A DNA stretch of 64,000 nucleotides from Microbispora sp. H11081. Lineage in GTDB: Bacteria > Actinomycetota > Actinomycetes > Streptosporangiales > Streptosporangiaceae. Both the position numbers and the translations under genes were made by a program. Of the stretch, positions 5,890 through 28,547 are shown piece after piece. Position 1 is the first letter of the stretch; each line of letters begins with the position of its first letter. The notes below the pieces were generated by a model that saw only the letters and a list, made by a program, of their open reading frames with translations, was not told where the DNA came from and searched no databases. Where the stretch lies: contig NZ_JABBWV010000003.1 in the NCBI RefSeq assembly GCF_012999535.1, positions 394,439-458,438 of the forward strand. Direction: 5' to 3'.

Positions 5890-5903
5890 GCCCCCACCTT
5901 CGC

Positions 5904-5922: not shown

Positions 5923-5929
5923 TCAACCC

Positions 5930-6895: not shown

Positions 6896-6907
6896 GGCCC
6901 CTCCTGA

Positions 6908-7409: not shown

Positions 7410-7645
7410 CGATCCCTCCGGTATTGGTTCGCGAGGCCCGGAGCGGCCTCATAGCAGCCGATCGGACGGCAACGGCGCGGGTCGCCGCTGCGGGCTGGTG
7501 CCAGCGGCACCATCAGCACCCGGCCGGACACCTCACCGCACATCAACCAGTGTGCGGGTGGCTTGGCCGGATAGAACAGCGGATCGTTCGCCCAGACGTC
7601 CTTGATGTCGTCGATCCCCAGGTGGGGATGTCTGAAAAGCAGCAA
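7406..7645 (-). pseudogene. Toxin-like partner of the RHH protein, apparently truncated at its 5' end
   Basis: A 79-residue frame starting at a TTG at 7645. The recognisable part, LGIDDIKDVWANDPLFYPAKPPAHWLMCGEVSGRVLMVPLAP and RPIGCYEAAPGLANQYRRD, resembles small BrnT-like or related toxins found next to RHH antitoxins: a short beta fold ending in R-P-I-x-x-Y-x-A. About 15-20 N-terminal residues that such proteins normally carry are missing. No good ribosome site precedes the TTG, and upstream codons read as a Pro run. The break coincides with the truncated 5' end of a response-regulator gene on the other strand. It could still be expressed as a short protein, so the pseudogene call is moderate. 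Confidence 0.5.
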
Positions 7646-7968
7646 CTCCGGCTGCGGAGGAGGCGGTGCGCAGGGCCGCCGCGGGGGAGCCGGTGCTGTC
7701 TCCCGAGGTGACCCGCGGCCTGATCGCCCACGTGACCGGGGGCGGAGCCACCCGCGCCCAGCAGGCGCGCGACCGGCTCTCGGTGCTGTCGGACCGGGAG
7801 CGCGAGGTGGCGTACGCCGTCGCGGACGGGTTGTCCAACGCGGAGATAGCCCAGCGGCTGTACATGTCGGTGGGCGCGGTCAAGGCGCACGTGTCCAGCG
7901 CGCTCGCCAGGCTCGGCCTGCTCAACCGGATCCAGCTCGCCCTGCTGGCGCACGACGCGCGGCACTGA
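7636..7968 (+). pseudogene. C-terminal remnant of a NarL/LuxR-family response regulator
   Basis: The frame opens right after a stop at 7633-7635 and runs into EEAVRRAAAGEPVLSPEVTRGLIAHV, the end of a receiver domain plus linker. It then reads LSDREREVAYAVADGLSNAEIAQRLYMSVGAVKAHVSSALARLGLLNRIQLALLAHD, a complete LuxR-type helix-turn-helix. The phospho-acceptor receiver domain, about 120 residues, is absent. A GTG at 7666 could make a 100-residue HTH-only protein, but it has no normal upstream region. The 3' end overlaps the convergent Mut7-C gene by 47 bp. The abrupt loss of the N-terminal half marks a deletion junction near 7640. Confidence 0.75.
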
Positions 7969-8677
7969 CCGCGCGGCGGGCGCGCTCGACGACGGCCGCC
8001 AGGCTGCCGCCGTGCGCGCCGTGCCAGTAGACCCGGCCGCAGGCGAGGCAGCGGGCGAACTCGTCGTAGCTGCGCCGGGTGCCGGGTTCCAGCGCGTCCT
8101 CCACCTCGGCCTTGCCGACCGGGGCGAGCCGTCCGTTGCAGGCCGGGCACCGGGTCCACGGGGCCAGCGGCGGCCGGAAGCGGTCGAGCACGTCGAGCAT
8201 CTGGTCGTCCGGCCTTGCCCCGCGCACGTACGCGCCGAGCCGCAGCGACCGGCGGCGCAGGATGCCCCGGTCCTGCGTGAGCAGCACCCGGCCCTCGGCG
8301 TTGGCCTGCTCGATCAGCGCGTCGTCGTCCCTGTCGTTGTGATAGGCGGTGTCGAGGCCGACGAGGCGCAGCCGCCGGGCGAGCGTGCCCAGGTGGACGT
8401 CCAGGAGGAACGCCGGGCGCGCCACCCGCTGAGGGCGGCGCACCGGCGGCACCTCCACCACCTCGTCCGGCCCCGGCCGGTACGAGGGGCCGACCGGGCG
8501 GCCTCCCGCCAGGAGGCCGCCGACCTCCGTCAGCGGAACACCGGCCGACTCGATCACGTGGCCGAGCGAGGACGTCCCGTCGTACGGCAGGAGCACCTCG
8601 GGCCGCCGGTCGCGCGGCGCGAGGAAGATCCACAGCTCGGGTGAGAAGCGCGCGTACACCCGCATGCCCTCCAGCAT
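7922..8677 (-). CDS. Mut7-C RNase-domain protein with N-terminal ubiquitin-like domain
   Basis: A 251-residue protein with two parts. Residues 1-85 are a ubiquitin-like beta-grasp region (MRVYARFSPELWIFL through PDEVVEVPPVRRP). Residues 90-235 are a Mut7-C domain: FLLDVHLGTLARRLRLVGLDTAYHNDRDDDALIEQANAEGRVLLTQDRGIL has the conserved Asp residues of this PIN-like nuclease fold. A zinc ribbon follows, with Cys pairs RCPACNGRL and RCLACGRVYWHG. The family is proposed to act on RNA; no activity is proven here. Two starts are possible, 8677 and 8665; neither has a well-spaced ribosome site. The 3' end overlaps the decayed response regulator. Confidence 0.82.
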   Translation of the reverse strand: MLEGMRVYARFSPELWIFLAPRDRRPEVLLPYDGTSSLGHVIESAGVPLTEVGGLLAGGRPVGPSYRPGPDEVVEVPPVRRPQRVARPAFLLDVHLGTLARRLRLVGLDTAYHNDRDDDALIEQANAEGRVLLTQDRGILRRRSLRLGAYVRGARPDDQMLDVLDRFRPPLAPWTRCPACNGRLAPVGKAEVEDALEPGTRRSYDEFARCLACGRVYWHGAHGGSLAAVVERARRAVSAARRAPAGRAGSG

Positions 8678-8710
8678 GCCCCCGCGCCGGCTCGGCGGGG
8701 ACGACTGGTC

Positions 8711-10168
8711 TCAGGGGCGGAACCAGTGCTGGGGGCGGGGGTCGGTGTTCTGCCAGATGTGCTTGATCTCGCGGTACTCGTTCAGGCCGGTCGGGCCGAG
8801 CTCCCGGCCCACGCCGGACTGCTTGAACCCGCCCCACTCCGCCTGCGGCACATAGGGGTGGTAGTCGTTGATCCACACGGTGCCGTGCCGCAGCCGGGCG
8901 GCCACCCGCTGCGCCCTGCCCGCGTCCGTCGTCCAGACCGCCCCCGCGAGGCCGTAGTCGGTGTCGTTGCCCAGCGCGACGGCCTCGTCCTCGCCGGAGA
9001 ACCGCTCCACCGTCAGCACCGGGCCGAACGACTCCTCGCGGACCACCCGCATGCCGCGGTGGCACTCGTCCAGCACGGTCGGCCGGTAGAAGTAGCCCTT
9101 CCCTTCCACCCGCCGGCCGCCGCAGCGGAGCTTGGCACCCTCCGCGACGCCCGCCTCGACGTACGCCTCGACCTTGGCCAGGTGCCCGGCCGAGACGAGC
9201 GGCCCGGTCTCGGCCTCCGGGTCGAACGGCCCGCCCAGCCTGATGCGCTCGGCCCGCCGTACGACCTCGTCCACGAACGCGTCGTGGACGGAGTCCTCCA
9301 CCAGCAGCCGGGCCCCGGCCGAGCAGACCTGTCCGGAGTGCAGGAAGACGGCCGTCAGCGCGAAGTCCACGGCGGTGTCGAAGTCGGCGTCGGCGAACAC
9401 GATGTTGGGGTTCTTGCCGCCCAGCTCCAGCGCGACGCGCTTGACCGTGCGCGCGGCGGTCGCCATGATCCACCGCCCGGTCGACAGCCCGCCGGTGAAC
9501 GACACCAGGTCGACGTCGGGGTGCTCGGCCAGCGGCGCCCCGGCCTCCGCGCCCGCCCCGAGCACGAGGTTGCCGACGCCCGGCGGCAGCCCCGCCTCCT
9601 CCAGCAGCCGCATCAGCAGGATCGCCGTCGACGGGGTCAGCTCGCTCGGCTTGAGCACGAAGGTGTTCCCCGCCGCCAGCGCGGGGGCGACCTTCCAGGA
9701 GGTCTGCAGCAGCGGGTAGTTCCACGGCGTGATCAGCCCGCAGACGCCGACCGGCTCGTACACCACCCGGCTCACCGCGTCGGCGCGGCCGGTGTCGATC
9801 ACCCGCCCGGCGTCGGTCCCGGCGATGCCGCCGAAGTAGCGGAAGCTCGCGACCACGTCGTCGACGTCGTACTCGCTCTCCACCAGGCGCTTGCCGGTGT
9901 CGAGCGACTCCGCCCGCGCGATCTCGGCCTTGTCCCGCTCCAGCAGGCCGGCCACCCGCAGCAGCAGCGCGCCGCGCTCGCGCTCCGGCGTACGCGGCCA
10001 CGGGCCCTCGTCGAAGGCCCGGCGGGCCGCGGCGATCGCCGCCTCCGTGTCGGCGCGGGTGGCCTCCGCGACGGTGGCCACGTGCTCCTCGTCGGCCGGG
10101 CAGCGGATCTCCCGGCGGCCGCCCTCGGCGGCGTCGCGCCACTGCCCGCCGATGTACAGGTCCTTCAT
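8711..10168 (-). CDS. betB: Betaine-aldehyde dehydrogenase
   Basis: A 485-residue aldehyde dehydrogenase of normal length. It carries the NAD-binding block ITPWNYPLLQTSWKVAPALAAGN, KPSELTP, VSFTGG, the catalytic Glu motif ALELGGKNPNIVF and the nucleophile region HSGQVCSAGARL (Cys near residue 286). The C-terminal NDYHPYVPQAEWGGFKQSGVGRELG resembles betaine-aldehyde dehydrogenases. It oxidises betaine aldehyde to glycine betaine with NAD(P)+ in the cytoplasm. The start lies 1 bp after the betA stop, so the two form a coupled betA-betB operon. That partner, and the IclR regulator divergent from it, support the choline assignment. Confidence 0.9.
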   Translation of the reverse strand: MKDLYIGGQWRDAAEGGRREIRCPADEEHVATVAEATRADTEAAIAAARRAFDEGPWPRTPERERGALLLRVAGLLERDKAEIARAESLDTGKRLVESEYDVDDVVASFRYFGGIAGTDAGRVIDTGRADAVSRVVYEPVGVCGLITPWNYPLLQTSWKVAPALAAGNTFVLKPSELTPSTAILLMRLLEEAGLPPGVGNLVLGAGAEAGAPLAEHPDVDLVSFTGGLSTGRWIMATAARTVKRVALELGGKNPNIVFADADFDTAVDFALTAVFLHSGQVCSAGARLLVEDSVHDAFVDEVVRRAERIRLGGPFDPEAETGPLVSAGHLAKVEAYVEAGVAEGAKLRCGGRRVEGKGYFYRPTVLDECHRGMRVVREESFGPVLTVERFSGEDEAVALGNDTDYGLAGAVWTTDAGRAQRVAARLRHGTVWINDYHPYVPQAEWGGFKQSGVGRELGPTGLNEYREIKHIWQNTDPRPQHWFRP

Positions 10169-10169
10169 G

Positions 10170-11804
10170 TCAGGCGTCCTTCCGGTGCCGGTAGAACTCC
10201 ACCGGCTCGGGGGCCAGGGGCGTGTTCCCGAGGATCAGGTCGGCCGCCTTCTCGGCGACCATCATCACCGGGGCGTAGATGTTGCCGTTCGTGACGTACG
10301 GCATGACCGAGGCGTCCACGACGCGCAGGCCCTCAAGGCCGTGCACGCGCATGGTCAGCGGGTCGACCACGGACATCTCGTCCACGCCCATCTTGGCCGT
10401 GCAGGAGGGGTGCAGCGCGGTCTCGCCGTCCCTGGCCACCCAGTCGAGGATCTGCTCGTCGGTCTCGACCTCCAGGCCGGGGGACAGCTCCCCGCCGTTG
10501 TACGCGTCCAGGGCCGGCTGGTTGAGGATGCCGCGGGCCACGCGTACGGCCTCGACCCATTCGCGGCGGTCCTGCTCGGTGGACAGGTAGTTGAACCGCA
10601 GCGCGGGCTTCACCCGGGGGTCGGCGCTCTTGATCTTCACCGAGCCGCGTGCGTCGGAGTACATCGGCCCGATGTGCACCTGGTAGCCGTGCCCGCCGGC
10701 CGGGGCGGAGCCGTCGTACCGCACGGCGACGGGCAGGAAGTGGAACATCAGGTTGGGGTAGTCGACGTCCTCGTTGCCGCGGACGAAGCCGCCGGCCTCG
10801 AAGTGGTTGGTCGCGCCGGGGCCCTTGCGCAGGAACAGCCACTGTGCGCCGACCATCGGCCGGTTGCGCCACTTCATCGCGGGCTGCATCGAGACCGGCT
10901 GCTTGCAGGCGTACTGGATGTAGACCTCCAGGTGGTCCTGGAGGTTCTCGCCGACGCCGGGCAGGTCGTGGACCACGTCGACGCCGTGCGCCTTCAGGTG
11001 GTCGGCCTCGCCGACGCCGGACAGCTGCAGGAGCTGCGGGGAGTTGATCGCGCCGCCGCAGAGGACGACCTCCCCGGCCCGCACCCGCTTGCCGTCGAAC
11101 TCGACACCGACCGCGCGCTTGCCCTCGAACAGGATCTTCGTGACGAACGCCCCGGTCTTCACCGTGAGGTTCGGCCGGTTCATCACCGGGTGGAGGTACG
11201 CCCTGGCGGCCGACAGGCGGCGTCCGCGGCGCAGGTTGCGGTCGAACGGCGCGAAGCCCTCCTGGCGGTAGCCGTTCACGTCGTCGGTCAGCGGGTAGCC
11301 CGCCTGCTGCACCGCCTCGAAGAACGCCTTGAACAGGGGGTTCCTGGCCGGTCCCCGCTCCAGCACCAGCGGCCCGTCGTGACCGCGCATGGGGTCGGCG
11401 TCGTCGGCCGCCAGGCAGTTCTCCATGCGCTTGAAGTACGGCAGGCAGTGCGCGAAGTCCCAGGTCTCCATGCCGGGATCGGCGCCCCAGCGCTCGTAGT
11501 CCAGCGGGTTGCCGCGCTGGAAGATCATGCCGTTGATGCTGCTCGACCCGCCGAGCACCTTCCCCCGGGCGTGGTAGATGCGCCTGCCGTGCATGTGCGG
11601 CTCGGGCTCGGACTCGTACTTCCAGTCGTAGAACCGGCTGCCGATGGGGAACATCAGCGCGGCGGGCATGTGGATGAACACGTCCCACAGGTAGTCGGGA
11701 CGGCCCGCCTCCAGCACGAGGACGCGGTTGGAGGGGTCGGCCGACAGCCGGTTCGCTAGCGCGCTCCCCGCTGATCCACCGCCGACGATGACAAAGTCAT
11801 ACAT
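10170..11804 (-). CDS. betA: Choline dehydrogenase/oxidase (GMC oxidoreductase)
   Basis: A 544-residue GMC flavoprotein. The N-terminal FAD dinucleotide fold reads [20 protein letters not shown] with VLVLEAG. The GMC signatures are [19 protein letters not shown] and [17 protein letters not shown]. The C-terminal catalytic region holds [12 protein letters not shown] and [22 protein letters not shown]. It oxidises choline to betaine aldehyde, which BetB completes. The start at 11804 faces the IclR gene across only 29 bp that contain palindromic sites. Related GMC enzymes act on other alcohols, but adjacency to betB makes choline most likely. BetA proteins usually associate with the membrane or respiratory chain; no membrane segment is visible. 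Confidence 0.9.
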
Positions 11805-11827
11805 GTCCGCCTCCCGGGCAGGATGAT

Positions 11828-11862
11828 ATTGATATGCGCAATAGAGTGCAGCATTCGCAACG
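11828..11862. promoter_or_regulatory. IclR operator region between betA and iclR (two related sites)
   Basis: Site 1 at 11828-11842 is ATTGATATGCGCAAT, an ATTG-N7-CAAT dyad that overlaps the iclR start codon. Site 2 at about 11852-11862 contains ATTCGCAACG. Both share the core AT-N-CGCAA with a site upstream of the Rieske gene at 14258-14276. Placement between the divergent regulator and target fits IclR control of both. Confidence 0.55.
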
Positions 11863-12676
11863 TCATGGGTCGGACCCCGCGCCCGCGGAGACCGAGGAGG
11901 CCACCGCGCGGTCCGAGGGGAGCGGCGGCGTCCAGTCGGTGGACCGTGCCGTGACGATCCTGGAGATCCTCTCCCAGCGGGGCGAGGCCGGCGTGAGCGA
12001 GGTCGCCGCGCAGATCGGCGTCCACAAGTCCACCGCGTTCCGGCTGCTGGGCGCGCTGGAGGCCCGCGGGCTGGCGGAGCAGGCGGAGGACCGCGGCAAG
12101 TATCGCCTCGGCTTCGGCGTCGTCAGGCTCGCCGCCGGGGTGGCCGCGCGGCTCGACCTCGTCCAGCAGAGCCGGCCGGTGTGCCGGCGGCTCGCCGAGG
12201 AGATCGGCGAGACCGTCAACATCGCCGTCGCGCGGTCCCACTACGCCATCAACCTCGACCAGGTGCGCGGGCCCGCGGCCGTTACCGCGCACAACTGGGT
12301 CGGCCAGCCGACCCCCCTGCACGCCACGTCGAGCGGCAAGATCCTGCTCGCCCACCTCGACGAGCGGCAGCGCGAGCGGCTCCTCACCGCGTCGGGGCTG
12401 GAACGCTACACCCCCGCGACGGTGACCGACGCCGCCGAGTTGCGCCTGCAGCTCGGCGAGGCGGTGCGGCGGGGCTACGCGGTCACCGTGGAGGAGTACG
12501 AGATCGGGCTGAACGCCATCGCCGCGCCCATCCGCTCCCACGAGGGCGAGGTGGTGGCCGCGGTCAGCGCATCCGGCCCGGCCTACCGGTTCAGCGAGGA
12601 GCGCATGCGCGAGATCGCGCCCGTGCTGGTGGCGGGCGCCGGCGACATCAGTCACCGTCTCGGCCACGCGGGATGA
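11834..12676 (+). CDS. IclR family transcriptional regulator, probable regulator of the choline genes
   Basis: A 280-residue IclR protein. After a 30-residue polar N-terminus, the winged helix reads [51 protein letters not shown]. The effector domain contains [37 protein letters not shown] and the C-terminal [39 protein letters not shown]. All are typical of the family, whose effectors are small organic molecules. It is divergent from betA with 29 bp between and ends 24 bp from the convergent ferredoxin reductase. AGGA lies 11 bases before the ATG, which itself overlaps a candidate operator, suggesting autorepression. Confidence 0.9.
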
Positions 12677-12700
12677 CCGGGCCCCTGGACGCGCGGGCGC

Positions 12701-13867
12701 TCATCGCGCGCCGGCGGGCTCGTTCAGGCGGCGGCGCCACCGGGTGAACGAGCGCGGCTGTTCGACGCCGAGCACCGCCACCGTGCGGCCCTCCCTGCGG
12801 TAGACGGCCAGGAACCGGCGGGACGCGAGGTCGCCCTCCTCCACGCTCACCTCGTCTCCCGGCAGCGTGTGCCCGGCGAACTGCACGCGCAGGCCGTACT
12901 GGTCCGACCACAGGTAGGGCGGCGCGAGGGTGTCGGGCACGGCGGCGCCGCCGGACAGCAGCGTCTGCACGGCGGTCGCGGGACGCCGCGCCGCGCCGGT
13001 CCAGTGCTCCACCCGCAGGTGGGCGCCGAGGGCGGGGTCGAACCAGGCGGCGCAGTCGCCGACCGCGACGACTCCCGGCACGCTCGTCGCGCCGCCGGTG
13101 TCGCAGACGACGCCGTCGCCGACCAGCACCCCGCTGCCGTCGAGCCAGTCGACCACCGGCCGCGCGCCGATGCCGGCGAGCACCACGTCGGCGTCCAGGC
13201 GGCGTCCGTCCTCGAGGAGCACGCCGTCGACGCGGCCCTCGCCCGTCAGGCCTCGTACGGCGGCGCCGCAGATCAGGCGCACTCCGTGGTCCTCGTGCAG
13301 CCCGGAGAGCGCGGTGCCCATCTCGGGGCCGAGCGCGCGGGCGAACGGCGCGGGCGCCGCCTCGACGATCGTCACGTCGAGCCCGAGGGCGCGGGCGACG
13401 CAGGCGACCTCGGCGCCGATGAAGCCCGCCCCGATCACCACGAGCCGCCGCGCGCCGTCGAGATCGGCCCGCAGGGCCGCCGCGTCCTCGATCGTGCGCA
13501 GCGTGTGGACCCCGGCGAGACCGTCCCCGAGGGTGCGGGCGACCGCGCCGGTGGCGATCACCACGCCGCCGGCCTCGACCGCGGAGCCGTCGGCGAGCGC
13601 GATCCGCAGCGACCGGCCCTGTTCCAGCCCGGTGGCGGCCACGCCCAGACGCCACTCGGCGTCGAGGTCCTCGCCTTCGCCCTCCAGGGCGAGGTCGGCC
13701 GTCGTCATCTGCCCCGCGAGGAACTCCTTCGACAGCGGGGGCCGGTCGTAGGGTCGGTGGGGTTCGGCCCCGACGATCGTCAGGCGCCCGCCGAAACCCT
13801 GGGCGCGCAGCGCGCGGGCCGCCGACAGCCCGGCGAGCGACGCGCCGACGACGGCGACGGAGTCCAC
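12701..13867 (-). CDS. FAD-dependent ferredoxin reductase (partner of Rieske ferredoxin)
   Basis: A 388-residue reductase of the BphA4/rubredoxin-reductase type. The FAD site is VAVVGASLAGLSAARALRAQGF, followed by RPYDRPPLSKEFL. The NAD site is RRLVVIGAGFIGAEVACVARALGLDVTIVE, and the second FAD block is VVAVGDCAAWFDP with HWTGA downstream. The C-terminal reductase domain ends RSFTRWRRRL. It takes electrons from NADH and passes them to a small Fe-S ferredoxin. The GTG at 13867 has AGGACGGGG ahead and lies 11 bp after the Rieske stop. No oxygenase subunit is present in the window, so the terminal acceptor must be elsewhere. Confidence 0.9.
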   Translation of the reverse strand: MDSVAVVGASLAGLSAARALRAQGFGGRLTIVGAEPHRPYDRPPLSKEFLAGQMTTADLALEGEGEDLDAEWRLGVAATGLEQGRSLRIALADGSAVEAGGVVIATGAVARTLGDGLAGVHTLRTIEDAAALRADLDGARRLVVIGAGFIGAEVACVARALGLDVTIVEAAPAPFARALGPEMGTALSGLHEDHGVRLICGAAVRGLTGEGRVDGVLLEDGRRLDADVVLAGIGARPVVDWLDGSGVLVGDGVVCDTGGATSVPGVVAVGDCAAWFDPALGAHLRVEHWTGAARRPATAVQTLLSGGAAVPDTLAPPYLWSDQYGLRVQFAGHTLPGDEVSVEEGDLASRRFLAVYRREGRTVAVLGVEQPRSFTRWRRRLNEPAGAR

Positions 13868-13878
13868 GGCGCCCCGTC

Positions 13879-14226
13879 CTAGGCCGACGTGGTGCGGACG
13901 CCGGGCGGGAGGTTGGGCGGCAGGTCCGACGGCACGACGTAGACGGTCTCGTCCTGGACCACCACCTGGTGGGTGCGCACCGGCAGCTTCGCGGGAGGAG
14001 CGTCCACCCGGCCCGTGCGCAGGTCGAAGCGCGACGCGTGCAGGGGGCACTCCACCTCGCACCCTTCCAGCCACCCGTCCGCGAGCGAGGCGTCCTGGTG
14101 TGTGCAGGTGTCGTCCACCGCGTACAGTTCACCGTCTTCGGTGTGGAAGACGGCGATCGGGGGATCTGTCTCGATTCGAAGGGCCTCGCCCCTGGGCAGG
14201 GCGGCGAGGGGGCACGCAGGAATCAT
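13879..14226 (-). CDS. Rieske [2Fe-2S] ferredoxin
   Basis: A 115-residue protein consisting of one Rieske domain. The cluster ligands are clear: CTHQDASL (C-x-H) and CPLHASRF (C-x-x-H), 19 residues apart. This is the small ferredoxin of ring-hydroxylating or betaine-type oxygenase systems, carrying electrons from the reductase encoded immediately downstream. No strong ribosome site precedes the ATG at 14226. About 32-50 bp upstream sits a site very like the IclR operators of the bet genes, so it may be co-regulated with choline oxidation. Glycine-betaine demethylation would fit that context, but the oxygenase is missing here, so this is only inference. Confidence 0.9.
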   Translation of the reverse strand: MIPACPLAALPRGEALRIETDPPIAVFHTEDGELYAVDDTCTHQDASLADGWLEGCEVECPLHASRFDLRTGRVDAPPAKLPVRTHQVVVQDETVYVVPSDLPPNLPPGVRTTSA

Positions 14227-19948: not shown

Positions 19949-20028
19949 GAGAGCACGGGCATCAGGCGTTACATTGGGCTCGCAATCTAGATCATGAAAC
20001 ACCCCGCGCGGTGAAGGACGTGAGCCCT

Positions 20029-20850
20029 ATGACGGCTGAGCAGGCGCCTCGTGGAGTCGATCCGAGCATCCCTAACGCGGCCCGCATGTACGACTACTTC
20101 CTGGGCGGCAAGGACAACTTCCAAGCCGATCGTGACCTGGCGAACCTGGTGCTGAGCGTGCTGCCCGAGACCAGGGAGGGCACCAGGCAGAACCGCCGGC
20201 TGATCGGCCGGATCGTGCGTTACCTGGTGGACCAGGGGATCAGGCAGTTCGTCGACCTCGGGTCGGGACTTCCGGCGCAGGACAACGTGCACGAGGTGGC
20301 CCACCGGCTCGCGCCCGACACGCGCGTGGTCTACGTGGACATCGATCCCGTGGTCTGCGCGCACGGCCGGGCGCTGCTCGCCGACCCCGACCGGGTGGCG
20401 ATGATCCAGGCCGACGCGCGCCGACCCGCGGAGGTCCTCGGCAACCCACTACTGCGCGAACTGATCGACTTCGACCGGCCGGTCGCGGTGCTGATGATGT
20501 TCTTCGTGCACCTGGTGCCGGACGAGGACGACCCGCAGGGGTTCGTCGCCGCCTACCGGGAGGCCCTCGCGCCGGGCAGCTACCTCGCGCTCTCGCACGT
20601 CTGCGGCGACGCCGCCCCGGAGCGGATGGACAAGATCGCCGACTTCTATCGCCAGGCCGACGTGCCGTTCGTCCCCCGATCGCGTACGGAGATCGCCCGC
20701 TTCTTCGGCGATTTCGAGCTGATTCCTCCGGGCCTGGCCAGCGGCACCGGGCCGGAGAACGTCTGGCCGTTCGGCGACGACGAGACCTCGCTGTTCGCCG
20801 ACGAGGAGACCGCTCGCATGGGCTGTGCGGGAGTGGGCCGCAAACCCTGA
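20029..20850 (+). CDS. SAM-dependent methyltransferase, DUF574 family
   Basis: A 273-residue protein with the actinobacterial DUF574 hallmarks: DPSIPNAARMYDYFLGGKDNFQADRDLA at the N-terminus and REGTRQNRRLIGRIVRYL. Then come the SAM site FVDLGSGLPAQDNVHEVA, VVYVDIDPVVCAHGRALL and the C-terminal RSRTEIARFFGDFELIPPGL. These proteins have a class I methyltransferase fold; substrates are unknown and genomes usually hold many copies. The ATG at 20029 was chosen from three in-frame starts (GTG at 20011 and 20020) because the family starts near MTAEQAPRGVDPSIP; AAGGA lies 11 bases ahead. It converges with the ATPase gene across a hairpin. Confidence 0.9.
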   Translation: MTAEQAPRGVDPSIPNAARMYDYFLGGKDNFQADRDLANLVLSVLPETREGTRQNRRLIGRIVRYLVDQGIRQFVDLGSGLPAQDNVHEVAHRLAPDTRVVYVDIDPVVCAHGRALLADPDRVAMIQADARRPAEVLGNPLLRELIDFDRPVAVLMMFFVHLVPDEDDPQGFVAAYREALAPGSYLALSHVCGDAAPERMDKIADFYRQADVPFVPRSRTEIARFFGDFELIPPGLASGTGPENVWPFGDDETSLFADEETARMGCAGVGRKP

Positions 20851-20902: not shown

Positions 20903-23900
20903 TCAGGTCCGGTTCGCCCGCGCCACGACCTCTTCGCTCGTCAGCGGGCTGCTCGGGTGGTGGCTCAGGCACAGCGGCGTACGGACCTTGGTGAAGGACC
21001 CGCCTTCGAACGCCGCGTAGAACTGGCCGGACTTCAGCCGCGACACGTCGAGGACGTCGCCGCCCTTGGCCCTGGCCAGCTCCCGCGCCGCCGTGATCTG
21101 GGCCGGCGCGTTGAGCAGGCCGAAGAACTGGGTGGCGGCGTTGCCCGTGATCCGGTTGTGCAGGCCCTTCGGCGCCTGGGTGGCGAACACCAGCCCGAGG
21201 CCGTACTTGCGGGCCTGGGCGGCGAGGGCGAGCGTGCTCTGGGTGCACACGGTCGCCGCCCCCGACGGCGCGAACGTCTGGGCCTCGTCCATCACGAACA
21301 GCCCGCCGAGCGGCCGGTCTCCGGCGGGATTCCGCTTGATCCAGGAGAACAACGCCATCTGCAACTGGTTGACGAAGCCCTGCCGCTGGGCGTCGGAGGC
21401 CATGCCGGTGAGGCTGATCACCGACACCCGGGCCCGCTTCCCCTCCGGCGGGGTCAGCAGGACGCCGGGATCGACGGGCGCCCCGGTCCCCGCGAACAGG
21501 GGATCGCTGATCGTCTCCGCCCTGAGGTGCTGGGCCATCTCGGTCGCGAGCCTTGCCGCGCCCTCGAGACTGCTCACGCCGTCCGGCAGGTCGTCGAGCA
21601 GCGCGATCAGGCCGCCCAGCCCCGCGCCGCCGCGCCGTCCGTAGTGGGCGACGGCCTCGCGGAGCACCGCCCGGCTGAGGTGCGCTTTGGCGGCCCTCGT
21701 CTCCAGCTTCGCCCGGGGCACCAGTGCGGCGACCGCCGCGTCCACGGCCTCGCCGAACTCGTCCGCGTCGTCGGCGATGCTCGCGAAGTCGGGCAGCGGC
21801 TGGAAGCTCAGCGGGCGTCCCGACTCCTTGCGCGGCGTCCAGATCACCACGTCGGTGTCCGCCAGGTAGTCGTCGGCCTTGGCCGCGTCGCCCTCGCCCC
21901 ACTCGGCGGGTGGTTCCGGCCACCGGTCGCCGAGCCGCGCGAGGTCGTTGTTCGCGTCGAGGACGATCGACGAGACCCCCTGCAGGGCGCACTCCTCCAC
22001 GAGACGGCGGATCAGCACCGTCTTGCCGGAGCCGGAGCCCGCGAAGATCGCCGTGTGCTTGCGCAGGAGCTCCAGCGGGATCCGTACGGGCCGGGTGTCC
22101 GAGGTCGCCGTGCCGATCGTCAGGTACGCGGCCGCCTGGGCCTCGCCCGGCGACAGCGGCCTGCGCGGGTGGGGAACGGCCGGAGTCGCGGTGGCCCGTT
22201 CCTCCGCGGGCACCACCTTCGAGGCCGGCGCCTCCGGCAGCGGCGTGGGTCGCGGCACGGGGGTCCGCTGAAGCACTCGCCGCTCGGGATTGGCGGTGGG
22301 CGGGGGGTGGCCCGGCGACCGCGCCGCTCGCGAGGACGTCCCGGCGGCCGGATCGGACACCCGCGGTACGGCCACGTCGCTTAGCGCCTCGGCGAACAGC
22401 TTCACCTCGCTCGTCGGTCTCCGGGAGACGAGCCACGCCTGGAGATCGGGCGGATCGTCGGCGAGAAGGTTCCGGAGAGCGGCGAAGATCCGGAGGTCGT
22501 TCTCCTCGGCCTGAAGCACACGGCCGCCCGCCTGCTCGAAGGCCGCCAGGGCATCCTGGGTCGCCGGTCCCTTCGCCCAGCCCTGGTTCCTGAGCACGAA
22601 CAGTTTGCGCGCGGAGATCCGCTCGTCGAGCCCGGCCGCCGTGGAGGCGGCCTTCAGCCGGGTGAGCGCGGCGGTGTGATGGGACGCCGAGATGGCCCGG
22701 AAGCACCAGTGGGCCTCGTTCTCCGTCGCCTCGTCCAGCGTCCTGCGCAGGCGGGCGTGCAGGGGCGGCTTCGTGCTCGGCGGCGGGTCCTGGGTGAACA
22801 GGCGCCCGTCGTCGCCCTGCTCGGTGATCCAGGCGGACAGCCCGGCCGACAGCAGGCCCGGCATCACGGCGTCCTCGGTGATCGGATTCAGCGCGCCCGC
22901 CACGTCCGCCCGCTCCCGCAGCTCCGCGAAGCGCCTGTCCAGTGTGTCGAAGTCGGCTTCCCGTTCTGGGAGCCGCTTGACGGCGACGGTCTTCTCGGGC
23001 TGGGAGCCGGTCAGCCGGTCCAGCTCCGTGACCTGCCCGTTCGCCAGGCACGACCGCACGTGCCTGTCGATCCGGATGAGCAACTGGCGGGGCGTGTACT
23101 GGGTCGCCTCCTCGAACGCCTCCGGCTTCACCGGCCACGTCGGATACGGCGGCGTGAACCCCGCCGCGTCGTACTGCGCGCCGAACCGCTTCTCGACCAG
23201 CGCCCGGCCGGTCTCCGCATCCGGAATCGCCCTCAGGGGCATAGTCGTCCTGAAGCGGTCCTGAACGGTGTCCGTGGCGCCCTCTTCGATCAACGTCCAC
23301 GTGAGGGGGAGACAGGACAGGACCGTCAGCGTGCGGCGGGTGACCTCACGAAGGGTCATCAGACCGCCCGCGATGCGTTCTATCGCCCGGCGGTGCTCCG
23401 GGTCGTCCGCCGATCCGGCCCCGGTGAGGGTCGCGGACTGGGCGATCAGCGTGTCGACCTGGTCGACGGCGATGATGGAGGGACCGGTGAGTGCGAGGAG
23501 CCCGGACAGGTCGTGGACGATCTCCTGCGGAGTCTTCTCGACGGTCCGGAACCCCCATTTTGCGCGCTCGCCGGGCTCGCCCTGAGGCGCGGAGATGAGG
23601 TAGGCGTCACCGACGTCCTGCGCCGTGAGGTCACAAGAAGCCCGCAAGGTGAGGGCGCGTGCGATGTCCTGCACGTCACGGCCGACGCGAGGGTCGTAGC
23701 GGCGCAGGGCGTTGACGAAGGCATCCAGGTCAGCCCGTGACAGGGGGATGTCGCCGATGATCGCGCCACGTGCCGCCCGTGGCACCTCGGCGAGCACGCA
23801 GAGGCGCCACAGGAGCTCCCTCAGCTGACTGCCGTCTCCGGCCATCGGCCGGGAGAGGCTGTCGAGCATAGAGAGCAGCACGCTCTCCCAGAAGTCCTTG

Positions 23901-24190
23901 GCGTCGAGCAGGCTGACGAGGAAGAAGTACGCGTCCTCTTCGTGAACCTTCTCGCGCACCCAGCCGAGCAGATGCGTCTTGCCCGTTCCCCGCTGGCCCT
24001 GTATCGCGACGCCGATGGGACTCGCGGCGACGCTCTCCTCCGCCTCCAGCAGCCCGTCGAGGATGACCTGCGCGGTCTCCCGGTGAATCCCCTCGACGTG
24101 GAACGGCAACGGGCGCCACACGTCGTCGGCGACCCGGGTGTAGTTGAACCGTAGGGCCCGAAGGGCGTCGAGTTCGGCGCTCGTCATCAT
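20903..24190 (-). CDS. Large dual ATPase: N-terminal AAA domain plus C-terminal HerA/FtsK-like translocase domain
   Basis: A 1095-residue cytoplasmic protein with two P-loop modules. The first has Walker A GQRGTGKTHLLGW near residue 65 and a Walker B-like SIIAVDQVDT near 240, in an AAA module with ORC/Cdc6- or BrxC-like flavour. A helical middle (about 330-620) and a Pro-rich linker (about 620-690) follow. The second has Walker A FAGSGSGKTVLIRRL near 715, LDANNDLARLG, Walker B GGLFVMDEAQTF near 963 and GLVFATQAPKGLHNRI. These match the HerA/DUF853-type helicase-translocase fold. The start ATGATGA overlaps the stop of the winged-helix gene. It is the third gene of an operon with a DUF559-type nuclease. 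A DNA-translocating motor in a defence or repair complex is inferred. Confidence 0.85.
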   Translation of the reverse strand: MMTSAELDALRALRFNYTRVADDVWRPLPFHVEGIHRETAQVILDGLLEAEESVAASPIGVAIQGQRGTGKTHLLGWVREKVHEEDAYFFLVSLLDAKDFWESVLLSMLDSLSRPMAGDGSQLRELLWRLCVLAEVPRAARGAIIGDIPLSRADLDAFVNALRRYDPRVGRDVQDIARALTLRASCDLTAQDVGDAYLISAPQGEPGERAKWGFRTVEKTPQEIVHDLSGLLALTGPSIIAVDQVDTLIAQSATLTGAGSADDPEHRRAIERIAGGLMTLREVTRRTLTVLSCLPLTWTLIEEGATDTVQDRFRTTMPLRAIPDAETGRALVEKRFGAQYDAAGFTPPYPTWPVKPEAFEEATQYTPRQLLIRIDRHVRSCLANGQVTELDRLTGSQPEKTVAVKRLPEREADFDTLDRRFAELRERADVAGALNPITEDAVMPGLLSAGLSAWITEQGDDGRLFTQDPPPSTKPPLHARLRRTLDEATENEAHWCFRAISASHHTAALTRLKAASTAAGLDERISARKLFVLRNQGWAKGPATQDALAAFEQAGGRVLQAEENDLRIFAALRNLLADDPPDLQAWLVSRRPTSEVKLFAEALSDVAVPRVSDPAAGTSSRAARSPGHPPPTANPERRVLQRTPVPRPTPLPEAPASKVVPAEERATATPAVPHPRRPLSPGEAQAAAYLTIGTATSDTRPVRIPLELLRKHTAIFAGSGSGKTVLIRRLVEECALQGVSSIVLDANNDLARLGDRWPEPPAEWGEGDAAKADDYLADTDVVIWTPRKESGRPLSFQPLPDFASIADDADEFGEAVDAAVAALVPRAKLETRAAKAHLSRAVLREAVAHYGRRGGAGLGGLIALLDDLPDGVSSLEGAARLATEMAQHLRAETISDPLFAGTGAPVDPGVLLTPPEGKRARVSVISLTGMASDAQRQGFVNQLQMALFSWIKRNPAGDRPLGGLFVMDEAQTFAPSGAATVCTQSTLALAAQARKYGLGLVFATQAPKGLHNRITGNAATQFFGLLNAPAQITAARELARAKGGDVLDVSRLKSGQFYAAFEGGSFTKVRTPLCLSHHPSSPLTSEEVVARANRT

Positions 24191-24924
24191 GCTCCGATCA
24201 GGATGAGGTGCTTGGCCTGGTCCCCGATCACGACAGCGGCACCTCTGTCCTCGTCGGTGAGCATCTTCTGGTTGGACTCGGGCACGAGACGCACGTCGGG
24301 CATGCTGATCATCCGGCGGAGCGTGGCGTCGACCTTGTCCCTCGGGGCATCGCCCAGCCGCGGGCGCAGCCGGGTCAGGCTCACCCAGGCGTTCGGCCTG
24401 TCGGCCAGTTGTGCGTACGCCTTGCGGATCGACGTCTCGATGTCGTCGGACGAGGGAGCCGGCACGCTCGCGGTAGGCGCGTTCACGATCACGCTGGGTT
24501 CCGTCGCGACCTCGGCAGCCGGCGGTTCCTCAACCGGCGCGTCGGTCGCGGGGACGGGGCCGGGCTCCCGGCCGAAGATGTCGGCGAGACCGATGCCGTT
24601 GCGCCGCATGTGCCGGTTGAGGCCGGAGGCCATCGCCCGTACGACCGCCTCGAGCATCCGTGCTGCGAGAACGATGGACATGGGGATGCCCTCAGCGAAA
24701 AGCGCGTTCGCCTTAAGTAACCCGTTTTTGGTCAGCTTGTGGGTGAATGCCCGATTCCGCTTCCCGACGTCGATGAATCCGAACTGCCGCAGGCGCTCTC
24801 GCTCCTGCTTCTTGATCTCGAAGCCGTACTGCTCCAGAAGCTCCGGGTTGGTGAACTCACGGGCCTCGGCCATGAGCAGCAGGAGAATGGCCGTCTCGCG
24901 CTGGGAGAGGGGTCTGTCAGACAC
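24187..24924 (-). CDS. Winged-helix protein of the nuclease/HerA operon
   Basis: A 245-residue protein I do not recognise as a named family. Residues 5-75 (LSQRETAILLLLMAEAREFTNPELLEQYG through KLTKNGLLKANALF) look like a winged-helix domain. A helical segment and a flexible Pro/Ala linker follow. The C-terminal 85 residues (IETSIRKAYAQLADRPNAWVSLTRLRPRLG through RRMISMPDVRLVPESNQKMLTDEDRGAAVVIGDQAKHLILIG) form a second winged-helix-like unit that I associate with proteins of phage-defence operons. The GTG at 24924 was preferred over the ATG at 24948 because AAGGA is 7 bases ahead. It overlaps the nuclease stop by 8 bp and the ATPase start by 4 bp. It may be the DNA-binding adaptor between them. 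Confidence 0.65.
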   Translation of the reverse strand: MSDRPLSQRETAILLLLMAEAREFTNPELLEQYGFEIKKQERERLRQFGFIDVGKRNRAFTHKLTKNGLLKANALFAEGIPMSIVLAARMLEAVVRAMASGLNRHMRRNGIGLADIFGREPGPVPATDAPVEEPPAAEVATEPSVIVNAPTASVPAPSSDDIETSIRKAYAQLADRPNAWVSLTRLRPRLGDAPRDKVDATLRRMISMPDVRLVPESNQKMLTDEDRGAAVVIGDQAKHLILIGA

Positions 24925-25996
24925 GGGGGGTTCCTTCGAACGTTCCATTGCGGCGGGTGTGGAGGAAGTTCTCGATCTCGGCCAGGACGGTGCCTACGTG
25001 GCCGAGGACCTGGTCGTTGGTGAAGCGGCGCACGGCGTAGCCCTCCCGCTGGAGGCGCTGGTCGCGGCGCAGGTCGGTGGCGCGGTGGAGCGGGTGGAGG
25101 TGTTCGGGCCCGTCGATCTCGACGACGCATCGTTCGGCCCGCCACAGCAGGTCCAACCGGATGGGAACGCTGAGCGGACCGGACCGGAACGTCTGGTTCC
25201 AGGCCCGTCCGACCGCCCACGCGCAGGACGTCAGAGCGGTCTCCAGGCGTTTCTCGGCGGTGCTGCCGGGGTGCGGCAGACCGGCGAGGGGTGGAAAGGC
25301 GAGGGGCGGAAAGGTGAGCACCGGGGGCCGATCGGCCGCCGGCCCGCCGCAGCCATAGTGGCGGGCGCCGGCCAGTTCCCGTACGAGGGCCGCCACCTCG
25401 TCCGGGATGGGGGCTGTCAGGCTCTCGACGCGATCGACCGCCCGCAGGGGCGGCCCGGTGAGCCAGACGCCGAACCCGCCGTGGTGGGCGAGCCATTCGA
25501 GCGCGGCGACCAGCACCTCCTCCCCGGCCGGGGAGAGGTCCCCGCCCACCTGGACGAGGATCGCCGTCTCGTCCCGCCCGTAGCCGGTGCGGAGTACCCG
25601 CGCCAGCCCGGCGGCGCGGATCTCGGGCGGGAAGCCGCCCGGGGTTTCGCCGAGCAGGGCACGCTCCGCGAGATGGGCGAGGTAGGGCGCGAAGTGCCGG
25701 GTGCCCGACGCCGTGCGCAGGGCGAGCGCCCGGATGGCGGGGACGGCCGCCCCGCCCGGCCCTGTGATGCCCTCGGCCCCGGGCAGCCAGGCGGGAAACA
25801 ACGCCAGTGCGGCGGACTCCAGTTCGCTCAGCACGTCGGCGACCACGGCCGCCGGAGTCCAGGCCGGACGGGGGACGTACGTGACCAGCGCGGGCGCGTC
25901 GGCGGGCAGGGGGTCGGCCGCCAGCGCGACGGCGTCCGGGTCGCCGTGCAGGTGTACGACCCGCCCCGTGGGAAGCTCTCTCCACGAGCGCGCCAC
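24917..25996 (-). CDS. DUF559-type (PD-(D/E)XK, Vsr-like) endonuclease-domain protein
   Basis: A 359-residue protein. The last 115 residues hold a restriction-endonuclease-like fold: STAEKRLETAL, PIRLDLLWRAERCVVEIDGPEH (candidate catalytic Asp and E-x-D) and RRDQRLQREGYAVRRFTNDQV. These are hallmarks of DUF559/Vsr-type nucleases, though a catalytic Lys is not obvious. The first 240 residues, an alpha/beta region including ILVQVGGDLSPAGEEVLVAALEWL, are unrecognised. The frame stays open to 26230, but codons above 25996 lose third-position G/C. The GTG at 25996 has GCGAGGAC 5 bases ahead, so I chose it; GTG at 26056 is an alternative. First gene of the operon; likely the nuclease of the module. 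Confidence 0.72.
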   Translation of the reverse strand: MARSWRELPTGRVVHLHGDPDAVALAADPLPADAPALVTYVPRPAWTPAAVVADVLSELESAALALFPAWLPGAEGITGPGGAAVPAIRALALRTASGTRHFAPYLAHLAERALLGETPGGFPPEIRAAGLARVLRTGYGRDETAILVQVGGDLSPAGEEVLVAALEWLAHHGGFGVWLTGPPLRAVDRVESLTAPIPDEVAALVRELAGARHYGCGGPAADRPPVLTFPPLAFPPLAGLPHPGSTAEKRLETALTSCAWAVGRAWNQTFRSGPLSVPIRLDLLWRAERCVVEIDGPEHLHPLHRATDLRRDQRLQREGYAVRRFTNDQVLGHVGTVLAEIENFLHTRRNGTFEGTPRV

Positions 25997-26103: not shown

Positions 26104-26137
26104 GGGCCCGTGCCCCATGGGCGGACGGCACGGGCCC
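26104..26137 (-). terminator. Terminator of the ECF sigma/CU044_5270 operon
   Basis: Perfect 11-bp arms GGGCCCGTGCC (26104-26114) and GGCACGGGCCC (26127-26137) enclose a 12-nt loop, starting 7 bp after the CU044_5270-type stop. It insulates the downstream nuclease/ATPase operon, which therefore needs its own promoter within the next 107 bp. Confidence 0.75.
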
Positions 26138-26144
26138 GTAGCGG

Positions 26145-27149
26145 TTACGGCCGTTCGCCGATCTTCTCGACCCAGCCGGACGACTCGTACACGGTCTTCT
26201 CGCCAGTGCGAGCGCCGACGCGGACGCCACGCCCGACGCGCTCTTCCTCCCGGTCCGGGCCGGTGTACTCCTCCGCCAGCAGGCGCGCGCCCGACTCGTC
26301 GACGATCAGCCGGTTGGCGCCGTCGGCGGACACGACCGCGGCGCCGGGGCGGCCGATCGGGTCGGCCACACCACGTTCCAGCCGCAGGCCCGGCTGGTCC
26401 GCGAGGACGCGCAGCATGGCGGCCCGGGTGGCCGGAGTGGTCGGGCCGGACAGCACCAGCCTCGTCATCGAGAACGTGAAGTCCACGGAGGGCTCGCCCC
26501 GCCGACGGGCTTCCAGCCAGCGGCGCAGGTCCTCGGCCTGCCGGGGCAGCCGCCAGAGGTCGTCCTGGGACAGGCTCTCGCCGCCGACGCCGGTCAGCAG
26601 CTTGATCCGGAAATCGCGGGTGCGGGGCGTCGGCTTGGCCTTGGCGGTGGCCCCGCCCGCGACGACCTCCGCGTCCAGGCCGCTCGTGGTCCTTCCCCGG
26701 CCGGTCTCGCCGTCGTACCAGGTCTCGGTGGAGGAGACGAGCACCTCGCCGGACGGCTGCGGCTCGTAGGACCGCTCGCGGCTGTACCAGTATCGGCCCG
26801 CCTTCACGTCCGCGCGGGCGGCGTTGTCGGCCCCCGCCAGGAGGAACGACCGCGCGTCGAGTGTCACGACGGGAGCCACCCGGTCCGCCGGGGCGGACGC
26901 GACGCCGCTGCCGGCCGGTCCGCCCGCCACGATCGGCCCTGTGGCACCGGACACGAGGACCGGGACCGCCAGCGCGGCGGACACGGCGGCCGCCGCGCCC
27001 CCGAGCAGCAGCCGGGCCCGTACGGGTGAGGGACGGCGGGAGGGAGGGTCGGTGAGGATCCGCGTGAGGTCGGCCCCGCGGCGGCGGTGGTAGGCGTCGT
27101 CGAGCAGGTCGTCGGGCCGCAGGGCGCGGACCAGTTCGTCGGTGTTCAT
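26145..27149 (-). CDS. CU044_5270-family membrane protein (putative anti-sigma-type partner)
   Basis: A 334-residue protein with a short cytoplasmic N-terminus (MNTDELVRALRPDDLLDDAYHRRRGADLTRIL). One transmembrane segment follows (LLLGGAAAAVSAALAVPVLVSG, about 45-67), then an extracytoplasmic domain of about 260 residues. That domain has YWYSRERSYEPQPSGE, DDLWRLPRQAEDLRRWLEAR and ADPIGRPGAAVV, the pattern of actinobacterial CU044_5270 proteins. These are regularly encoded behind ECF sigma factors and are thought to act like anti-sigma or sensor proteins, though no zinc-anti-sigma motif is present. The ATG at 27149 overlaps the sigma stop (ATGA). A strong hairpin closes the operon. Confidence 0.8.
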   Translation of the reverse strand: MNTDELVRALRPDDLLDDAYHRRRGADLTRILTDPPSRRPSPVRARLLLGGAAAAVSAALAVPVLVSGATGPIVAGGPAGSGVASAPADRVAPVVTLDARSFLLAGADNAARADVKAGRYWYSRERSYEPQPSGEVLVSSTETWYDGETGRGRTTSGLDAEVVAGGATAKAKPTPRTRDFRIKLLTGVGGESLSQDDLWRLPRQAEDLRRWLEARRRGEPSVDFTFSMTRLVLSGPTTPATRAAMLRVLADQPGLRLERGVADPIGRPGAAVVSADGANRLIVDESGARLLAEEYTGPDREEERVGRGVRVGARTGEKTVYESSGWVEKIGERP

Positions 27150-27640
27150 CGCAGCTGCTCCTGAAGGACCGTCTGAGAGGAGTTGAGCATGTCCGCCAGA
27201 CGCCGGCGGGCACGGTGGAGACGGACGGCGAACGTCCGTGCGGAGCATCCGACGACCTTCGCGGCCTCGGCCGGGCCGAGACCGTACCAGCTCGTGAGGA
27301 TCAGGGCCTCCGCGTCGGCGCCGGACAGACGGGCGAGGGCGTCGAGCGCCGCCTGCCGCTCGCCGACCTGGTCGGCCACGTCCCCCTCCGGGGCCGACAA
27401 GGTGAGCCGCAGCGGCCGCAGTTCCAGATGGCGCTGCTTGCGCAGCAGGTTGCGGGCCACGACGAGGAGCCATGGCAGAGGGTGCTCCGGCACCTGGGCG
27501 AGCCGTCGCCAGGCGATCAGGAACGTCTCGCTCGCGATGTCCTCGGCCGACTGCCGTTCGGCGCGGAGCAGCGCGTAGCCGAGCACGTTCCGGTAATGCC
27601 GGTCGTACAGCTCGGTGAAGCGTTCTTCGGGGTCGTCCAT
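27146..27640 (-). CDS. ECF RNA polymerase sigma factor (SigE/CU044_5270-associated type)
   Basis: A 164-residue ECF sigma factor with region 2 (FTELYDRHYRNVLGYALLRAERQSAEDIASETFLIAWRRLAQVPEHPLPWLLVVARNLLRKQRH) and region 4. The latter spans LDALARLSGADAEALILTSWYGLGPAEAAKVVGCSARTFAVRLHRARRRLADML. It redirects RNA polymerase to stress-type promoters. The ATG at 27640 gives the standard ECF length. The coupled downstream membrane protein probably controls its activity. The 57 bp upstream should contain its promoter; GGAAC close to the start is too near to be a -35 box. Confidence 0.88.
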   Translation of the reverse strand: MDDPEERFTELYDRHYRNVLGYALLRAERQSAEDIASETFLIAWRRLAQVPEHPLPWLLVVARNLLRKQRHLELRPLRLTLSAPEGDVADQVGERQAALDALARLSGADAEALILTSWYGLGPAEAAKVVGCSARTFAVRLHRARRRLADMLNSSQTVLQEQLR

Positions 27641-27697: not shown

Positions 27698-28441
27698 CTA
27701 CGCCGTCTCTGATCTGATCAGGCGGAGGAACGCCTTGATGCCCGACAGGACCTCCTGGTTGTCGGTGAGGCGGCTCAGGGAGTCTTCGAACGTCCTGCCC
27801 ATGGCGTCGAGCCGGCGGTCGAGGGCGTCCCCCGTGGCCGTGGCCGTGTGGAACCCGGCGCGCGTCTCCGCTGTGAGGGAGTCGAGGCGCTCGGCCAGTT
27901 CGGCGGTCCGGGCCTCGGACTCCTCGGCCCGCGCCTCCAGTGCCTCGACGCGCCCGGCCAGCGTGACGACGTCCTCGCGGGGATAACGGACCTCTTCCAG
28001 CATCGTGGTCATCCGGCTGCGCAGGTGGGAGAACCAGGCCCCGGCCGGCCGGAAGAACGTGCCGAGCAGGTAGAAGACGGCGAAGTAGTAGCCGACGGTC
28101 TCACCGGAGAAGTAGGTGACGGCCGCGAGCAGGGCCGCCGACACCAGGTGGGCGGCGACGGCGGCCCGGCGCATGCGCACCGCGATGCGGTGGGCCTCCG
28201 TCTCGCGTTCCGGCGAGACGGCCACGCCGCGCTCGCGGCTGACGCGGATCTCGTGGATCAGGGAGTGGGCCTGGAAGTACAGGTTCCACGGCACCGTCAG
28301 GAGCACGATCAGCCAGAGCAGGCACAGCGCCCCGAAGCCCAGCGAGACGACCACCGGCAATGGCACGTCCACCACGTAGACGAGGACGATCCCCGCGATC
28401 GTGGTGACGATCGTGAGTAAGACGATCCCGCTTCTGCTCAC
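27698..28441 (-). CDS. Membrane protein with C-terminal coiled coil
   Basis: A 247-residue protein. It has two N-terminal transmembrane helices (GIVLLTIVTTIAGIVLVYVV and LPVVVSLGFGALCLLWLIVLL), a basic cytoplasmic loop and two more hydrophobic segments (VAAHLVSAALLAAVTYF and YYFAVFYLLGTFF). A long coiled coil of about 85 residues follows, with heptads such as RVEALEARAEESEARTAELAERLDSL. No family recognised. The GTG at 28441 has GGAAAGG 6 bases ahead; ATGs at 28447 and 28456 are in frame but badly spaced. It might be a structural or clustering protein at the membrane. It precedes the ECF operon by 57 bp. Confidence 0.65.
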   Translation of the reverse strand: MSRSGIVLLTIVTTIAGIVLVYVVDVPLPVVVSLGFGALCLLWLIVLLTVPWNLYFQAHSLIHEIRVSRERGVAVSPERETEAHRIAVRMRRAAVAAHLVSAALLAAVTYFSGETVGYYFAVFYLLGTFFRPAGAWFSHLRSRMTTMLEEVRYPREDVVTLAGRVEALEARAEESEARTAELAERLDSLTAETRAGFHTATATGDALDRRLDAMGRTFEDSLSRLTDNQEVLSGIKAFLRLIRSETA

Positions 28442-28547
28442 GGTCATCCTTTCCATCGGCGTTGTGACACGTCAGTGTCGCCTCCGGATCGGCGTGCGGG
28501 CATGAGCGCGATCACCCGGTTCGGGTGAGTACGTTCGCTCAGCGGAA

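Follow-up and report, generated by a model that had tools for sequence, protein, structure and literature searches.

Separate exchange of winged-helix-like and AAA+ modules on a constant HerA motor in a three-gene Microbispora operon with a predicted anti-invader role

The window analysed here is a stretch of 64,000 nucleotides from Microbispora sp. H11081 (contig NZ_JABBWV010000003.1), and its positions 20,903 to 25,996 carry a minus-strand operon of three genes. They encode a nuclease of 359 amino acids (24917..25996), a protein of 245 amino acids with two winged-helix-like ends and a variable linker between them (WH protein, 24187..24924), and a motor of 1095 amino acids (20903..24190), in which an Orc/Cdc6-type AAA+ module, an alpha/beta middle domain and a linker are followed by a HerA/FtsK ATPase. 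We observed that recombination has exchanged alleles of the N-terminal domain of the WH protein and, separately, the AAA+ module, and that partner genes stay with the WH-motor core through large parts of its tree, with several replacements. The role predicted as most likely for the operon from its sequence is defence, probably against invaders and in the manner of a HerA/FtsK 'capture' system whose recognition modules and effectors can be exchanged.

The exchange was traced in 14 Microbispora genomes (the window, eight named ones and five more of the genus), which give 91 pairs. The median identity was 92 % for the flanking 5'-nucleotidase, 88 % for the HerA module (20906..22135), 83 % for the middle domain (22376..22957), 77 % for the C-terminal domain of the WH protein (24190..24447), 72 % for the AAA+ module (23003..24172) and 46 % for the N-terminal domain of the WH protein (24595..24921). 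The N-terminal and DUF559 domains of the nuclease gave 75 % and 73 % with locus L209 included, whose nuclease gene has a frame break and which is omitted from pair counts where stated. The WH N-terminal domain falls into two main classes of 40–46 % mutual identity, plus a third one (L006 and L204). Among the 32 pairs with HerA identity of at least 93 %, it was at or below 50 % in 16 (13 of 26 when L209 is omitted), and no other of the eight modules compared fell to that level in any of these pairs, except DUF559 in the six L209 pairs. The AAA+ module was at or below 76 % in 20 of the same 32 pairs (17 of 26 without L209). The same pattern was seen in a second clade, where L130 and L142 have 98 % identity in HerA, 62 % in AAA+ and 39 % in the WH N-terminal domain.

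The exchanged blocks were also seen in the operon DNA, compared in 300-base windows. Loci L027 and L037 are 61–64 % identical at about 24,940–24,490 and 79–98 % over the rest of the operon, and for L028 and L206 the identity is 71–76 % at about 24,340–23,140 and 78–98 % elsewhere. In the tree of the WH N-terminal domain, class II (L004, L027, L028, L206 and L209) comes out as a clade with 99/99 support; the approximately unbiased (AU) test rejects this grouping on the HerA, AAA+ and nuclease data (p = 1.6e-62, 2.6e-14 and 2.4e-104, respectively). Likewise, the AAA+ tree unites the window, L027, L028 and L037 with 100/100 support, and the HerA, WH N-terminal and nuclease data reject this group (AU p = 3.6e-8, 1.2e-12 and 2.1e-53). 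Both groups were picked from the identity tables, before the trees and after the data had been seen. Over the 91 pairs, the identity of the WH N-terminal domain shows scarcely any correlation with that of AAA+ (Spearman 0.12, permutation p 0.11) and a weak one with that of HerA (0.19, p 0.02). The WH C-terminal domain (consensus NQKxLTxxDRxAAVxIGxQDxHLLxIG) covaries with the AAA+ module (Spearman 0.89) and belongs with it to the second exchanged block.

The partners of the core were surveyed in 153 loci: 83 from the first contig scan and plasmid records, 41 and 28 from further draws, and the window. Of the 230 relatives given by the scan of genome contigs, the 80 best entered the survey. Partner classes were assigned by our own distance limits from nine query seeds and a nuclease profile, and 'none' means none of these. 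The WH gene adjoins the motor gene in 150 of the 153 loci (the exceptions are the cut contig L017 and the solo motors L191 and L194), so the association is not due to chance, and the nuclease, the WH protein and the motor form one conserved unit. The original prediction was that the set may be a self-contained motor-plus-nuclease complex; however, the nuclease is not fixed: the DUF559 nuclease is present in 99 loci, another recognised partner takes its place in 39 and none is recognised in 15. The replacements are PDC-M02A with PDC-M02B (19 loci), a divergent trypsin-like/WD40 protein (11 loci, with Trypco1 detected in nine), an HTH (helix-turn-helix)/P-loop-like protein as sole partner (six), TIR with KGGVGR proteins (two) and AIPR/AbiU (one, L066), starting 13 nucleotides after the motor. 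Representatives of the partners matched DUF4365 (4e-10; this is PDC-M02A in Pfam terms), Trypco1 (2.5e-18), TIR_2 (9.2e-14), SEFIR (2.3e-17) and AIPR (4.1e-40) in Pfam, and PDC-M02A (1.9e-71), PDC-M02B (5.4e-141), AbiU (3.5e-115), PDC-M28B (1.3e-26) and bSEFIR (8.4e-31) in PADLOC. The name 'trypsin-like' is based on one representative (PADLOC Avs1b 1.4e-6, NCBIfam MarP 8.1e-5) together with Trypco1. The DUF4365 and AIPR proteins we take to be nuclease-like.

On a FastTree phylogeny of 140 cores, from which L009, L017, L171, L178, L190 and L196 (cut or broken cores) and seven repeat loci were left out, the partner changed at least 11 times, where the least possible number is 6 and shuffled partners gave a mean of 48.0 (0 of 200 shuffles were as low). 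The presence or absence of DUF559 alone requires at least six changes forced by well supported branches; some long branches of this tree (L084, L083, L195 and others) are unsurely placed.

The HTH/P-loop-like protein (about 725–780 amino acids, cut in L170) lies upstream of the core, together with the nuclease in L026 and L160 and without it in L053, L060, L132, L159, L169 and L170. Its name is our reading of the sequence, as Pfam gave nothing for L060 and a weak TPR match for L159; the protein may have an accessory sensing role and not be an effector itself. A second motor gene stands directly upstream of a complete nuclease-WH-motor set in L173 (about 4216–13901, reversed orientation), from the family that includes Frankia; L175 and L176 of the same genome repeat the Frankia loci L079 and L082. 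In genomes related to that of L173, the solo motors L191 and L194 have no recognised WH gene and stand beside two divergent genes that by eye look Ser/Thr-kinase-like.

The patterns of module exchange and covariation suggest how the parts could work together. Recognition would lie with the N-terminal half of the WH protein and with the AAA+ module. The N-terminal winged-helix-like domain of the WH protein would recognise a fast-changing feature of the invader, which could be a site on DNA or a protein bound to it. The AAA+ module, of Orc/Cdc6 type, would bind ATP and assemble on the WH-bound complex, with the WH C-terminal domain docking on it, and HerA, as the constant engine, would close into a ring for pumping or gripping DNA and switch on the effector. 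This last role would fall in the window to the DUF559/Vsr-fold nuclease, tied in by its AAA/STAND-like domain without a P-loop, and elsewhere the same core would have PDC-M02A/B, AIPR/AbiU, trypsin-like/WD40 with Trypco1, or TIR/KGGVGR proteins as its output. That the target is an invader is suggested by the families to which the partners belong, by the diversification and by the patchy distribution. The WH protein had been proposed as a possible DNA adaptor with winged-helix-like ends; it is indeed part of the conserved unit, but its N-terminal half is the most variable and recombining part of the locus, and the protein looks like more than an adaptor.

We tentatively go one step further and consider it possible that the operon is an immune chassis that is modular in two ways. 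The WH N-terminal domain and, separately, the AAA+ allele, recombined onto a constant HerA motor, would set the target, and the weapon would be exchanged over longer times; an analogy is offered by restriction S subunits, which recombine their recognition domains. Candidates for such weapons, equally tentative in our view, are the nuclease-like DUF559, DUF4365 and AIPR proteins, the trypsin-like protease and the TIR proteins. If true, recognition and effector would both be interchangeable, in a system that as yet has no name. Strains with near-identical HerA and a very different WH N-terminal domain or AAA+ allele provide natural controls, as do homologous cores with different partners. They make it testable what sets the choice of target and by what means nucleases, a protease or TIR proteins could all be driven by a single motor.

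The closest relatives in the literature are the neighbourhoods described in the text of a 2024 paper (Nucleic Acids Research (NAR), PMC10853773). There, Orc/CDC6 and HerA/FtsK ATPases occur with an inactive restriction endonuclease (REase), an active REase belonging to either of two families (AbiJ shares one of these) and a winged helix-turn-helix (wHTH) protein, and the set is proposed to intercept invader DNA; the text of PMC12839542 restates the proposal. The likeness to our operon lies in the coupling of an Orc/Cdc6 AAA+ to HerA/FtsK and, with less certainty, in a fast-evolving, putative wHTH protein and a probable nuclease effector, as far as these systems are set out in that text, and the operon would be a compact three-gene example of a scheme proposed there from gene neighbourhoods. 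Of the five defining features, the Orc/CDC6-family AAA+ ATPase and the HerA/FtsK ATPase were found here. Regarding the wHTH feature, the WH protein has a winged-helix-like sequence pattern, and the window's member has no HTH_27 match. In the place of the active REase a nuclease is present, of the DUF559/Vsr-like kind; the REase family other than that of AbiJ goes without a name in that text. In the place of the inactive REase, which according to the same text is inserted after the AAA+ core, the motor has its alpha/beta domain (residues 412–605, delimited by the secondary structure of the model), without a convincing match among PDB sequences or Pfam. When ten profiles (both nuclease domains, AAA+, middle domain, HerA, both WH halves, M02A, M02B and the HTH/P-loop-like protein) were compared with one another, no pair exceeded probability 15, so this domain is not established as an REase. 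Moreover, the operon differs from the capture systems in having AAA+ and HerA in one protein, in the AAA/STAND-like domain of the nuclease, in its non-nuclease partners and in its recombining WH alleles. As two of the five features were found and the other three may be present, we describe the operon as a variant of the HerA/FtsK capture kind and do not claim membership.

The operon had been proposed as a candidate undescribed system. No PADLOC model matched the WH protein or the nuclease at E up to 1, and no description of the cassette was found among the papers listed in the literature searched, which mostly leaves out subscription journals; the general scheme, however, was already proposed in PMC10853773, as far as its main text tells. 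That main text makes no mention of DUF559, Vsr or actinobacteria, and that of PMC12839542 none of DUF559, DUF4365, trypsin or actinobacteria; the figures and supplementary tables of both, which lie outside this comparison, may hold members.

Other known systems share single parts with the operon. The HerA half of the motor matches mad8 of PADLOC (2.3e-19, residues 698–1063), but the mad8 model, with a length of 314, lacks the AAA+ half, and the only other mad match among 13 window proteins is a weak mad2 (1.3e-4) of a methyltransferase on the opposite strand. MADS is reportedly an eight-gene locus, mad1-8. DndFGH/DptFGH are more distant, since the operon has no DndH-like multi-domain chain (the motor matches PADLOC DndH at 0.061, in the P-loop only) and its two partner proteins have no PADLOC match, to DndF and DndG included. 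The SIR2-, DUF4297- and NurA-HerA systems, which use SIR2, DUF4297 or NurA as the enzyme, resemble the operon in that the HerA motor is joined by a second protein carrying the effector enzyme; their HerA chains (about 490–670 residues) are in our reading too short for an added AAA+ half. In contrast to HerA-NurA, the partner matches the DUF559/Vsr fold, and no NurA family is among the Pfam matches of the nuclease at E up to 1. The PADLOC candidate PDC-M02 is represented by M02A and M02B in the nuclease's place, whereas the WH protein and the motor match neither model; no mention of PDC-M02 was found in the literature searched. Finally, Trypco and related conflict systems are the subject of PMC7159879 and PMC8195603; the Trypco/trypsin systems of PMC7159879 have, in the text seen, Trypco1 adjoining a trypsin-like protein, and in the parts seen of both papers HerA was found in the reference lists only.

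Several observations weigh against an anti-invader system with exchangeable modules. In 162 pairs from outside Microbispora with HerA identity of at least 85 %, the WH N-terminal domain has a median identity of 77 % and is at or below 55 % in 12, so its exchange is strong in some lineages only. The partners are clustered on the core tree, hence their replacement is not frequent, the trypsin-like gene is divergent and not co-transcribed, and 15 of the 153 loci have no recognised effector, two of them (L017 and L196) being cut contigs. HTH_27 was matched by 3 of 53 WH proteins, weakly (best 0.0049), and the winged-helix assignment follows a sequence pattern. The location in a defence island, suggested as a check, was not found: apart from the weak mad2 match, PADLOC (E up to 0.001) gave nothing in 10 flanking frames. 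There was no match in 50,697 phage records, and no relative was confirmed in viral contigs. Moreover, the WH gene is present in 11 of 11 Microbispora genomes, at one locus each, and shared flanking genes place the operon at one chromosomal site.

Such constancy, in ordinary chromosomal surroundings, would also suit a housekeeping complex for end resection or segregation like HerA-NurA, with the DUF559 protein as NurA and the WH protein loading the motor on the chromosome. The window's genome holds a single copy (one match each for the nuclease and WH proteins, one full match for the operon DNA), and the HerA module is predicted to be structurally like SsHerA and the HerA-NurA structures. We nevertheless regard this as unlikely. 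Beyond the genus the system is patchy: the AAA+ part was found in at least 6 of 396 genomes of the phylum draw, at least 45 of 394 of the class draw and at least 100 of 297 of the order draw (26 of 62 genera, all of one family), lower bounds since only some first-look candidates were scored, and the even draws include the window's own genome. Trypsin-like/WD40 or TIR proteins replace the nuclease in some lineages, and allelic exchange of the WH N-terminal domain between strains with near-identical HerA would be unexpected of a housekeeping factor. We also think it rather improbable that the AAA+ module and the WH protein act as a STAND-like alarm, sensing an invader protein, with HerA only scaffolding oligomeric effectors, so that growth stops or the cell dies (abortive infection), in the manner of SIR2-HerA. 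The trypsin-like/WD40 and TIR/KGGVGR partners need not act on DNA, the AAA+ Walker B has DQ(V/I)D in place of DE, and the nuclease contains a domain of AAA/STAND-like fold that lacks a P-loop. However, the HerA motifs GSGSGKT and MDEAQ are invariant in 46 sequences save for S719 (at least 90 %), and the commonest partner, DUF559, is a DNA-nuclease fold. A role of the WH protein in transcription or development, in which it controls its own operon or host genes and is remodelled by the motor, is very improbable. The N-terminal domain reads weakly like a winged helix of the MarR/HTH_27 kind (MarR being our own reading of the sequence), yet the upstream DNA stays 85–89 % identical when the WH class is swapped (L027/L037 and L004/L014; windows from 26,290 and 26,140), an argument against explaining the variation by autoregulation, and effector replacement does not fit such a regulator either.

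Profile searches and alignments agree with the domains assigned in the original prediction. The DUF559/Vsr-type nuclease with D...E-x-D residues was confirmed by the Pfam match to DUF559 (7.7e-12); in its catalytic domain, residues 243–350 (24947..25270), D282, E293, D295, H299, D308, R311 and D312 are invariant among 48 sequences. Residues 1–208 (25373..25996) lack GK(S/T) and, on the fold matches of VIA-align, which also gave the Vsr fold of the C-terminal domain, appear to have an AAA/STAND-like fold, possibly an inactive STAND, an assignment based on fold with middling scores; Foldseek with the nuclease model gave nothing under E 0.001. The two complete P-loop modules of the motor were likewise upheld (Pfam AAA_22 1.6e-7 and DUF87 4.3e-10). 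Among the 46 aligned proteins, the AAA+ module (residues 7–396; Walker A 65–72; Walker B VDQ(V/I)D 242–246) has G65, G68, G70-K71-T72 and D243-Q244-x-D246 invariant, and the HerA module (residues 686–1095; Walker A GSGSGKT 718–724; Walker B FVMDEAQ 965–971) has G718, G720-S-G-K-T724 and V966-M-D-E-A-Q971. The window's WH protein has no Pfam match. Many calmodulins were hit with a profile built from the WH alignment (best 2.7e-5), which we judged a chance helix-loop-helix resemblance because the consensus reads as HTH and lacks the EF-hand acid pattern.

The three overlapping minus-strand frames are open and intact, as had been predicted. The nuclease gene runs from GTG 25996 to its stop at 24917, and the motor gene from ATG 24190 to 20903. 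The WH gene, with its stop at 24187, could start at GTG 24924 (overlap with the nuclease gene GTGTCTGA) or at ATG 24948, and we preferred the former because aligned relatives often have Met at the same position; it overlaps the motor gene by ATGA. A G+C-rich hairpin at 26104..26137 on the same strand, between the upstream gene and the operon, folds well (-39.5 kcal/mol for 66 nucleotides, z -2.84; 2 of 200 shuffles were equally good). The hairpin itself is thus real, but 'strong terminator' is too strong a label since no T run follows it and it is absent from the terminator scan list. The motor linker (about 22138–22375), between the middle and HerA modules, has low confidence in the model, and the matched motor stretch ranges from 1095 to 1262 amino acids across the 14 Microbispora genomes.

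In the plasmid collection, 3 of 72,556 records were matched. Among them is a Nonomuraea record as large as a chromosome; the same three-gene order stands on a plasmid of Tsukamurella and on a megaplasmid of Methylobacterium, which belongs to another phylum. A megablast search of E. coli, which reaches near DNA only, gave no match. Two versions of the cassette occur within one genome in Dactylosporangium vinaceum (L060 and L064), Rhizocola hellebori (L053 and L042) and one other genome (L132 and L155).

In the window, a sigma-factor gene and the gene next to it (26145–27640) lie between the operon and a conserved gene at 27698–28456. The former was present in one and the latter in two (one partly) of eight Microbispora loci, so this is a variable spot adjoining the operon. 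On the other side, the opposite-strand methyltransferase with the mad2 match (20011–20850, PF04672, S-adenosyl) is 95 % identical in L003 and 41 % in L006; for six further Microbispora loci it was not found in the DNA examined, which in some of them stops early. In the Tsukamurella record (L083), the three-gene cassette stands between rpsQ and rplN, close to a VapB antitoxin and a PIN-domain gene.

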